Shown here one piece after another: positions 29,378 to 34,569 of a stretch of 64,000 nt of DNA (positions are counted from its first letter, which is position 1; the number at the start of each line of letters is the position of its first letter). A program made the translations under genes and the position numbers. This DNA is from Acidimicrobiaceae bacterium (lineage in GTDB: Bacteria > Actinomycetota > Acidimicrobiia > Acidimicrobiales > RAAP-2). The notes beneath the pieces are model-generated. The model ran no database searches, had not been told where the DNA came from, and was given only the letters and a program-made list of their open reading frames with translations. The stretch is from the NCBI GenBank assembly GCA_003161255.1, contig PMOQ01000075.1:1-64000 (forward strand). Direction: 5' to 3'.

Positions 29378-29936
29378 GGTGCCCCCAGATAACGGTGCGC
29401 TATGTGCCCGCGGGGTCTCGGCGGAGATCGATTTGTCAAGTTCAATATACCAGTTTCCTCGGCAAATGGGGGATGGATTGCGAGAGATCCGTTGGCCTTG
29501 ATACAAGAATGTTCTAGTTGTCTCACACGGTGTGCCTGCCGTTGACACACGGTGTGCCTGCCGTTGACTGTTGTCGTCACCACGTTGAGCCGGCCAAGAG
29601 GTTCAACGTCGATGACTTTTGCCTCATTGCGGGAAAGGGGCAGCAACCGTTTTCTAGTCGCCATCGCGCATGTGCGTGGTCGGGGGGAGATTGCAGTTGG
29701 GGTGGTGTTGTGTGAACTGAGCGACGATGACGCTTTGTCCCCCATACGGTCGAGAGCAGCCCGGATGGTGACATCTGCTGTAGCTGCCGCTCGATCTCCG
29801 TGCTCCAAAGGGAGCAGCCATGAGCCCGATCAAGCGGATTGATTGCGCACGCACGCCCATCGGTGTCCAGACCTCATCTCTGAGGCACGAGGAGCACCAC
29901 GTTGCCACCAAGGCATCAGCACGTCGAGCTCAAGAG
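29378..29936. other. 560-bp divergent regulatory region
   Basis: It separates the c-di-GMP gene from the WxL operon. It is visibly AT-richer than its surroundings around 29440-29520 (ttcaatatacc, tacaagaatgttctag) and contains a 22-bp tandem repeat. I see no gene of known type, although the WxL ORF can be extended to 29820. Confidence 0.5.
29524..29567. repeat. Two tandem 22-bp repeats, each with an 11-bp palindrome
   Basis: CACACGGTGTGCCTGCCGTTGA occurs twice head to tail without spacer (29524-29545, 29546-29567). Each copy contains CACAC-g-GTGTG. Two palindromes spaced by two helical turns suit cooperative binding of a dimeric regulator for the c-di-GMP gene, the WxL operon, or both. Confidence 0.7.
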
Positions 29937-30485
29937 ATGACGATGCACCCCAGCAACCATCGCGGATTGAAGTGCGTCGCGGCACTCGCGGCACTCGCCA
30001 CGGGCGCAGTTGGCGCAACCGCGCTCGCGACTGGACCAGCGTCGGCGGCAACACCCGCAAGCTTCGACATCACCGGCGGCGCGCTCTCCATCTCGACGCC
30101 GACCGTGGGCGTGTCGCTCGGGACCCAGGTGGCCAGCACGAGCCCGCTCGTCATCTCTGGACCACTTGGACTGGTCACGATCACTGACGGGCGAGGCGGC
30201 GTGACCAGTTGGATCGCGTCGGTCATCTCGACGGCCTTCACCCCAACGTCCGGGCCGGCCGATCCTGCGAGCAACGTCAGCTACGCCGCAGGTCCCTTCA
30301 CGATCTCGGGCGGGGCCACGCCGACCGGGACCGACGCCTCGGATCTCACCGGCGTCACCCCGGTCGTGTCGGTCACAAGCACGGGCATCAGCTCCGTGAG
30401 CTGGAATCCGACGATCTCGATCGCCGTACCTGGGAGCTTTGCCCCTGGGCACTACACCGCCACGATCACGCATTCCGTTGCGTGA
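29937..30485 (+). CDS. WxL-domain-like secreted cell-surface protein
   Basis: 182 residues from the ATG at 29937 (MTMHPSNHRGLK). A signal peptide (about 1-36) ends GPASAATPA. The mature part is Ser/Thr/Gly rich with SFDITGGALSI, VTITDGRG, VTSWIASVISTAFT, and a C-terminal SSVSWNPTISIAVPGSF followed by HYTATITHSVA, the layout of the WxL domain known for binding peptidoglycan in low-GC Gram-positives. The next gene encodes a WxL-interacting-type protein, which supports the call. Confidence 0.65.
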   Translation: MTMHPSNHRGLKCVAALAALATGAVGATALATGPASAATPASFDITGGALSISTPTVGVSLGTQVASTSPLVISGPLGLVTITDGRGGVTSWIASVISTAFTPTSGPADPASNVSYAAGPFTISGGATPTGTDASDLTGVTPVVSVTSTGISSVSWNPTISIAVPGSFAPGHYTATITHSVA

Positions 30486-30499
30486 CCGACTGGTGTTCG

Positions 30500-31549
30500 A
30501 TGAAGCTTCCAACCGGCGCTCCCTTGGCGATGGTGCTCGGCATCGTCGTGTTCTCGGCGGCAGTCTGCGTTGCCAGCGCAGTCCCTGCCAACGCGTCGTC
30601 GGCAACGACCGCGCGCGGTATCGGCGTCAAGCTGCTGGAACCTGCCGGGGCCATCTCGGCGCCTGGACTGGAGAGTGTCTACATCGTCGGTGATCTCCGC
30701 TCCGGGGCAACGATGACTCGCCACGTCGAGATCCTCAACTCGACAGCGTCGACGCAGCGAGTGTCCGTCTACCCGGCTGCCGCCCGCATGCACGCAGGTT
30801 CGTTCGCGATCGCAGTTGGACGCAGCGCGAATGAACTCTCGAGCTGGACCACGATGTCCAACTCATCGCTCGTGCTCGCGCCGAACACTGCCACCTCCGA
30901 CACGGTCACGATCGTGGTCCCGAGAGGCGCGCTCTCCGGCGAACGCTATGCCGTCGTCTGGGTACAGGTCTCGGCCACCAGCACGCCGACGAGCAGCGTC
31001 CAACTCGTGAGCCGGGTGGGCATCCGGATCTATCTCACCGTGGGCTCGGGCGATCCAGCCGTAGAGCCGTTCAGCATCAGCAAGCTCACGGCGGCGAGAA
31101 CAACCGCTGGCGCGCCCCTCGTCGAGGCGTCGGTGCTGAATGAGGGTGCGAGGACGGTACGCATCACTGGCCACATCGAGCTCAGCGACGGTCCGGGCGG
31201 CATCGGCATCGGTCCACTCCCCGTGAGCTCCCTCCTTGCACTTCCCCCCGGTGACGCGGGCCGGATCAGCGTGCACTTCGAGCGAGGACTCCCGCGAGGG
31301 CCGTGGCGCGCTGCGTTGTCGCTGTCAGACGGCTCCACGGGTCACGTGCGCGTGACCGAGCTCGTGTTTCCCGGGTCGGTGACCACGACATCGACACCGT
31401 GGTGGCGGCACTCTGTGCTCATCGCCGCGCCGGGGGTCGTGGTGGTCCTGGTCCTTCTCGTGTTCCTACGACGACCGTTCGCGAGGCACACGCTGCGGAA
31501 ACGACGCGCCCGGTCGTTGCGGGCGGCCGTGGAGTGGATGCGTACGTAG
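30500..31549 (+). CDS. WxL-interacting-type (DUF916-like) membrane protein
   Basis: 349 residues from the ATG at 30500, 14 nt after the WxL stop. Signal peptide (about 1-33, ending ANAS), then beta-rich domains: GLESVYIVGDLRSGATMTRHVEILNST resembles the N-terminal peptidoglycan-binding domain of WxLIP proteins, and a second Ig-like domain lies at about 190-290. One membrane segment (VLIAAPGVVVVLVLLVFL, about 310-328) and a basic tail end the protein. This topology and the pairing match WxL/WxLIP surface complexes, which hold the WxL protein on the wall. Confidence 0.65.
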   Translation: MKLPTGAPLAMVLGIVVFSAAVCVASAVPANASSATTARGIGVKLLEPAGAISAPGLESVYIVGDLRSGATMTRHVEILNSTASTQRVSVYPAAARMHAGSFAIAVGRSANELSSWTTMSNSSLVLAPNTATSDTVTIVVPRGALSGERYAVVWVQVSATSTPTSSVQLVSRVGIRIYLTVGSGDPAVEPFSISKLTAARTTAGAPLVEASVLNEGARTVRITGHIELSDGPGGIGIGPLPVSSLLALPPGDAGRISVHFERGLPRGPWRAALSLSDGSTGHVRVTELVFPGSVTTTSTPWWRHSVLIAAPGVVVVLVLLVFLRRPFARHTLRKRRARSLRAAVEWMRT

Positions 31550-32998: not shown

Positions 32999-33736
32999 GT
33001 GCCAATCGAGCGCCTGATCGACATCTACGAGGAGTTGGCCCGACGCGGTCGCCTGGGTGCTGGCGGCCCCACGCTGTGCGTGGTCGCGGCTGAGTTCATC
33101 GGTGTCAGTGGCGCGGGTGTCGCGATCCTGCCGTCAGGCGGGCTCATGACCTCCCTGTGCACCAGCGATGGCGTGGCGCGGGCGCTCATGGATCTCGAGC
33201 TGACGGTTGGCGAGGGGCCGTGCGTCGACGCGTGCTCGTCTGACGTGGTCATCGCCGAGCCCGACCTCGACTCGCCGCAGGCGCCGGGCTGGGTCTCTTT
33301 TGCACCTCTCGCTCTCGCCGCAGGCGCACAGGCGGTCTTCGGCGTCCCGGTGCGAATCGGTGCTGTCCGCCTAGGCGCGCTGAGCCTCTACGAGCAGCAC
33401 ACCGGGTCGCTCACCGAGTCACAGTCGAGCGACGCGTACCTCATGGCGTCGGTCGTGGGTCGAGCAGTCCTTGCCCACCAAGCGGGTGCCCCTCTGGGCT
33501 CGATCGAGCACGAGCTCGCGCGCGAGAGCCCGTTTGACTATGCCGTCCACCAGGCCGCGGGCATGGTTGCCGTGCAAGGTGCCATCACCGTCGGAGAAGC
33601 ACTTTCTAGAATTCGTGCGCACGCGTTCGCAACTGAGGCCACCGCGTCGGCGCTCGCGGGTCGGATCGTCTTCCGTGAGATCGTCTTTGACGCTTTGTCT
33701 CGCGAGTGGCGAGAGACATGGACGACAACTCGATGA
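32999..33736 (+). CDS. GAF-ANTAR regulator (RNA-binding antiterminator)
   Basis: 245 residues, GTG start. GAF domain at about 25-155 with VGEGPCVDACSSDVV. ANTAR domain at about 180-232: VHQAAGMVAVQGAITVGEALSRIRAHAFATEATASALAGRIV. The typical ANTAR 'IEQAKG' is here 'VHQAAG', a divergent form. Such proteins bind paired RNA hairpins to stop termination, in answer to a signal sensed by the GAF domain. A second GAF-ANTAR gene follows 86 bp downstream on the same strand. Confidence 0.8.
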   Translation: MPIERLIDIYEELARRGRLGAGGPTLCVVAAEFIGVSGAGVAILPSGGLMTSLCTSDGVARALMDLELTVGEGPCVDACSSDVVIAEPDLDSPQAPGWVSFAPLALAAGAQAVFGVPVRIGAVRLGALSLYEQHTGSLTESQSSDAYLMASVVGRAVLAHQAGAPLGSIEHELARESPFDYAVHQAAGMVAVQGAITVGEALSRIRAHAFATEATASALAGRIVFREIVFDALSREWRETWTTTR

Positions 33737-33822
33737 CGGTCCGACTACCCTTTGACCGAGATCGACCTGCCAAAACTGCATCGTGGGGAACGATCGTGGC
33801 TGGTCGCTCATAAAGATGCCAC

Positions 33823-34569
33823 ATGCCCCGTGAATCGCTCCTGATATCGACGCTCGTCGAGCTCGCGGACAATCTTGTTGACCACTTCGACGTGATCGAC
33901 GTGCTCACGGTGCTGAGCGACCGATGCGTAGAGGCAATCGACGTCGATGCTGCCGGCGTCCTGCTGGCGTCCCCGCAGGGAGACCTCCAGTTCATCGCCT
34001 CGTCGAGCGAGTCGATCCGCACGCTCGAGCTCTTTCAGATTCAGTCTGACGAAGGACCCTGCGTCGACTGCTACCGGAGCGGGACCGCGATCGTCAACCG
34101 TGCCCTCGGCGATGCCGAGGTGCTGTGGCCCCGCTTCGCGCCGATGGCCCTTGCACACGGCTTTCGTTCCGTGCATTGCCTTCCCATGCGACTCCGGGGA
34201 AGGACCATCGGGACGCTCAACCTCTTCCGCACCGAGCAAGGTCCGCTGAGTGACGAGGACGCGGTCGTCGCACAAGGGCTTGCCGACGTCGCGACCATTG
34301 CGATCATCCAGCACCGGTCAGCCATGGACGCGCGGACGCTCAACGACCAGCTCAGCCACGCGCTCAACAGTCGGGTGACCATCGAGCAGGCGAAGGGGAA
34401 GGTGAGCCAGGCGACGGGCTGCGGCATGGACGCGGCATTCGACAGGCTTCGGGCGCACGCGCGCAGCCACAATGCTCGCCTCACCGACGTTGCCGAGGCG
34501 GTCGTGACAGGAGCGTTCGAGCCGAGCGCCCTCGATCTCGGCGCCGCCGAGAGGTCCTCGCGGGCTTGA
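33823..34569 (+). CDS. GAF-ANTAR regulator (RNA-binding antiterminator)
   Basis: 248 residues from ATG (MPRESLLISTLVELADNL). The GAF domain (about 10-155) carries SDEGPCVDCYRSGTAIV. The ANTAR domain (about 170-225) is canonical: LNSRVTIEQAKGKVSQATG, then DAAFDRLRAHARSHNARLTDVA. Cytoplasmic antitermination regulator; target RNAs are unknown. With the previous gene and the GAF-GGDEF-EAL protein it makes three GAF sensors sharing an (E)GPC motif within 7 kb. Confidence 0.85.
   Translation: MPRESLLISTLVELADNLVDHFDVIDVLTVLSDRCVEAIDVDAAGVLLASPQGDLQFIASSSESIRTLELFQIQSDEGPCVDCYRSGTAIVNRALGDAEVLWPRFAPMALAHGFRSVHCLPMRLRGRTIGTLNLFRTEQGPLSDEDAVVAQGLADVATIAIIQHRSAMDARTLNDQLSHALNSRVTIEQAKGKVSQATGCGMDAAFDRLRAHARSHNARLTDVAEAVVTGAFEPSALDLGAAERSSRA

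Follow-up and report, generated by a model that had tools for sequence, protein, structure and literature searches.

We found that the divergent intergenic region between a c-di-GMP gene and a surface-protein cassette of an Acidimicrobiaceae bacterium carries two perfect, adjacent copies of a 22-bp unit, and we consider that this pair is probably a recent tandem duplication within a long noncoding spacer (Table 1). The unit is duplicated, the pair is unique, and it is absent from comparable promoters; as it stands, the repeat is a small duplication in the spacer. In an earlier note on the same DNA, the pair was read as a site of cooperative protein binding that may link c-di-GMP turnover to surface structure, an interpretation that is partly supported by the present analysis. 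The window referred to below is the whole analysed stretch of 64,000 nucleotides.

Table 1. Features of the repeat-containing region, in window coordinates
Feature	Coordinates	Strand	Description
GAF-GGDEF-EAL gene, 622 aa	27509-29377	-	Pfam GAF_2, GGDEF and EAL; SGDEF and EALLRW in the translation
Divergent noncoding intergenic region, 559 bp	29378-29936	.	Holds the repeat
22-bp unit, copy 1, CACACGGTGTGCCTGCCGTTGA	29524-29545	.	Palindrome CACAC-G-GTGTG at 29524-29534
22-bp unit, copy 2, identical to copy 1	29546-29567	.	Palindrome at 29546-29556
WxL-like secreted protein	29937-30485	+	Signal peptide-like N-terminus; weak Pfam WxL in family; all-beta model
Partner protein	30500-31549	+	Beta domains and C-terminal membrane helix; adjoins the WxL-like gene in most strong homologous loci

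Structure of the tandem repeat

The two CACACGGTGTGCCTGCCGTTGA units are adjacent, head-to-tail and 100% identical. Both the perfect copies at 29524-29567 and the CACAC-G-GTGTG palindrome in each of them, as described in the earlier note, were confirmed, the former by sequence identity and by Tandem Repeats Finder (29524-29568, period 22, 100% matches), which gave this repeat the highest score of any in the window. Identity between the units extends over 22-23 bp (one extra base), after which the left and right flanks are unrelated. The pair thus consists of exact head-to-tail copies that have no common sequence past the unit, as in a slippage-type duplication. The palindrome has two matches in the window versus 0.10 expected, both of them in the repeat, and because the 22-bp unit is duplicated, the second match is a mere copy of the first. 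The chance that a random 22-mer of the same composition contains a palindrome with 5-bp arms ranges from 0.05 (spacer ≤1) to 0.11 (spacer ≤8); since 5–11% of such units carry one by chance, the palindrome alone is weak evidence. Random matching would hardly ever yield a perfect 22-bp tandem pair, but one duplication event is expected to. Outside N runs, no second perfect tandem duplication of more than 15 bp was seen in about 450 kb of the same genome, so a 22-bp tandem duplication is rare in this genome, but one event suffices.

The spacer and its flanking genes

The earlier note describes the gene context correctly: the GAF-GGDEF-EAL gene is divergent from the WxL-like cassette. The gap between them, given as about 560 bp in the earlier note, is 559 bp long if 29937 is the start of the surface gene and 29377 that of the GGDEF-EAL gene. 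Both starts (29377 and about 29937) are favoured by codon-position composition, over in-frame starts further upstream, and by homologue alignment. A surface-gene start at 29820 was rejected, as 29820-29936 lacks coding-like codon-position bias, which suggests that the stretch from this ATG to the surface gene is not coding. A hairpin, TGCTCC-AAAG-GGAGCA (29801-29816), covers a Shine-Dalgarno-like sequence right before the in-frame ATG at 29820. The repeat is located 146 bp from the GGDEF-EAL gene and about 370 bp from the surface cassette. Within 29378-29936, scanning revealed no sigma-70-like promoter or terminator, there was no Rfam match, and RNA folding of either strand was no better than that of shuffled sequences. 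Given the lack of an Rfam match and of excess folding, an RNA element was rejected.

Pfam WxL matches three of the four members of the WxL-like family, albeit weakly (best E 3.4e-4) and not the window copy itself, and a search with the WxL-like model found no solved structure of significantly similar fold. Just 3' of the cassette, two adjacent genes (32999-34569) code for one GAF-like and one GAF-ANTAR protein, which are both relatives of the GAF region in the GGDEF-EAL protein.

Occurrence of the repeat and its palindrome

A genome scan for further repeat pairs, proposed in the earlier note, came back empty: the 3.0-Mb genome contains no further copy of the 22-mer at up to 3 mismatches. Among 397 genomes of the order, searched with up to 2 mismatches, there is one other match, a single copy with 2 mismatches at the edge of an open reading frame (L077). 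About 0.3 matches are expected in that DNA, as estimated under uniform base composition, and this single match is expected by chance. The tandem pair is found in none of the 6 genus or 397 order genomes, and no relative among them has the same spacer, in which a single-copy ancestral state might be visible. Since a counterpart of the spacer was not found in the genus relatives, phylogenetic footprinting could not be applied. Elsewhere in the genome, the CACACNGTGTG palindrome recurs exactly in a single place, within the coding sequence of an ammonium transporter, as identified by reading its translation and from a glnK-like neighbour rather than by family search.

The regions preceding 11 other GGDEF/EAL genes give best palindrome matches at background level, and only background-level matches were found upstream of the BldD-like regulator gene. 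The same holds, at best, for the paralogous cassette and the cassette of another species, and also for thirteen order-level cassettes, upstream of which there is no 22-bp tandem repeat either (14 other-cassette upstream regions were compared, besides that of the paralogous cassette). The repeat does not recur upstream of related genes in the way that characterizes the operator of a regulon. Collections of plasmids and phages gave no match to the spacer region, and viral contigs do not contain the exact 22-mer, so that a mobile or phage/plasmid origin was rejected. Judging by titles and abstracts, the top 15 of 31 literature matches to the palindrome string concern yeast, animals, viruses or human disease, and no bacterial operator with this string is evident among them.

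Origin of the repeat

If the pair arose by local duplication, one 22-bp unit would have been doubled, presumably recently and most simply through slippage during replication or another minor duplication. Such a doubling would explain why the copies are perfectly identical, why they are spaced 22 bp apart and why there are two palindromes, and selection for cooperative binding is not needed. Moreover, identity spans the whole unit and not the palindrome alone, as plain duplication predicts. This reading is further favoured by the unrelated flanks, by the uniqueness of the unit in the genome and its near absence from the order, by the lack of the palindrome at comparable promoters, and by the negative RNA-folding, plasmid, phage and viral results. 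Against plain duplication stand the divergent noncoding location, the 10/10 palindrome and the lack of any other perfect tandem duplication of at least 20 bp in about 450 kb, which indicates that such events are infrequent. Palindromes of this form are recognized by many dimeric repressors, and a site for one local regulator alone would likewise occur once. Ranked second, behind recent local duplication, is a duplicated functional operator, which we regard as possible but rather unlikely. Here, a protein would bind CACAC-G-GTGTG cooperatively in both copies, separated by 22 bp or about two turns, and would control the GGDEF-EAL gene and possibly the surface cassette. A perfect palindrome inside an intergenic divergent region is consistent with this reading, and the cooperative binding proposed in the earlier note is compatible with the spacing, which is near two helical turns and would permit binding on the same face; duplication, however, explains the spacing without such selection. 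Furthermore, EAL-containing or two-component regulator genes neighbour the cassettes of the order above expectation, making c-di-GMP-linked control plausible. On the other hand, the repeat has no second site in the genome, the palindrome is compatible with chance, neither is common to paralogous or homologous cassettes, and no candidate regulator was found nearby. The more specific proposal, namely, that the doubled palindrome serves a possibly c-di-GMP-responsive regulator as a lineage-specific operator, coupling the GGDEF-EAL enzyme to the WxL-type cassette in this actinobacterium-like lineage, appears improbable. If true, an operator would offer a handle on how this uncultured lineage ties c-di-GMP turnover to surface proteins. 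Recent local duplication is compatible with an ancestral single unit that was an operator as well as with one that was not.

Streptomyces BldD, when complexed with c-di-GMP, binds its box and regulates GGDEF genes, cdgA and cdgB among them. To our knowledge, BldD is the sole actinobacterial c-di-GMP-dependent repressor with a site resembling the palindrome, and it was tested because the neighbour of the repeat is a c-di-GMP enzyme. A homologue with a conserved DNA-binding domain is present in the genome and in each of the 6 genus relatives; the BldD query sequence is borne out by the match of the homologue to PDB 2ewt/4ob4 and NCBIfam BldD. Each repeat copy can be read as a BldD box, the consensus of which is TNAC(N)5GTNA (PMC4151990), but only at 5 of 6 positions at best, and such 5-of-6 matches arise about once per 560 bp of the window. 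Nor does the genome show enrichment of the full core TNACNCNGNGTNA (7 versus 12 reversed controls), and such a palindrome is absent upstream of both the BldD-like gene and other GGDEF genes. The homologue scores 93 bits against an equivalog cut-off of 250 bits, and its RXD-X8-RXXD c-di-GMP signature is incomplete, with RKE as motif 1 and 7 residues between the motifs; the acidic residue of motif 1 is also missing from the relatives alignable at this position. Incomplete signature, chance-level 5/6 match and unenriched core together disfavour a BldD site, and it is very unlikely that the repeat binds a BldD-like regulator giving feedback on c-di-GMP turnover. The regulator itself (L054:834-1331, G000:C22) is conserved in the genus and has a shortened C-terminus, and its RKE corresponds to RRS, RRN or RRQ in relatives, in place of RXD. 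We consider it just as improbable that a single unit was doubled by the assembler: the genome is indeed a draft of 107 contigs, 87% complete and with N runs elsewhere, but a repeat of 45 bp is shorter than the usual read length and normally resolved, and there is no N near it.

WxL-type cassettes and c-di-GMP genes

The WxL-like gene and its partner form a conserved two-gene cassette. The genome has two paralogous versions of it (window 29937-31549 and L044:4742-6424), and homologues exist elsewhere. The WxL-like gene is missing in the other 6 genus members and in nearly all of the 100 family genomes searched, whereas about 10% of order genomes have the partner gene, and the cassette is also found in MAGs labelled Gaiellaceae and Acidobacteria. 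Such a patchy distribution suggests horizontal transfer of the cassette.

An EAL-containing gene lies within about 2 kb of the cassette at 4 of the 13 strong order-level loci in other genomes (L108, L109, L112 and L116), where 0.49 would be predicted by the GGDEF counts of the respective genomes; the corresponding P of about 0.001 is optimistic, because the test was chosen post hoc and EAL-only genes are missing from the expected count. OmpR-type response regulators occur at two of these four loci. In L108, the cassette is followed by a separate response regulator gene and a giant EAL-hybrid kinase, whereas in L116 an OmpR-type response regulator-PAS-EAL fusion overlaps the cassette end. Gene orientations at the four loci differ from the divergent layout of the window, and the repeat plays no part in them. 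The link between c-di-GMP and surface proteins suggested in the earlier note thus draws modest support from gene neighbourhoods and none from the repeat. This putative association, which is independent of the repeat, is a more useful outcome than the repeat itself.

Comparison with known systems

Like the BldD box, each repeat copy has an AC-N5-GT core, a GGDEF-EAL gene nearby and a BldD homologue in the genome; unlike it, the repeat has incomplete outer T/A positions (5/6), its core is not enriched genome-wide, and the c-di-GMP signature of the homologue is incomplete. The repeat resembles the tandem operator pairs that dimeric repressors have in divergent promoters of bacteria in that a noncoding spacer contains two instances of a short palindrome at a distance of about two helical turns. 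However, the site described here is not recurrent and is putative only, and identity spans the whole unit beyond the palindrome. Two-copy minisatellite-type slippage duplications are likewise exact and head-to-tail, with unrelated flanks, and the present repeat may, like them, be lineage specific; it differs from them in lying in a promoter-sized spacer and in containing a palindrome.
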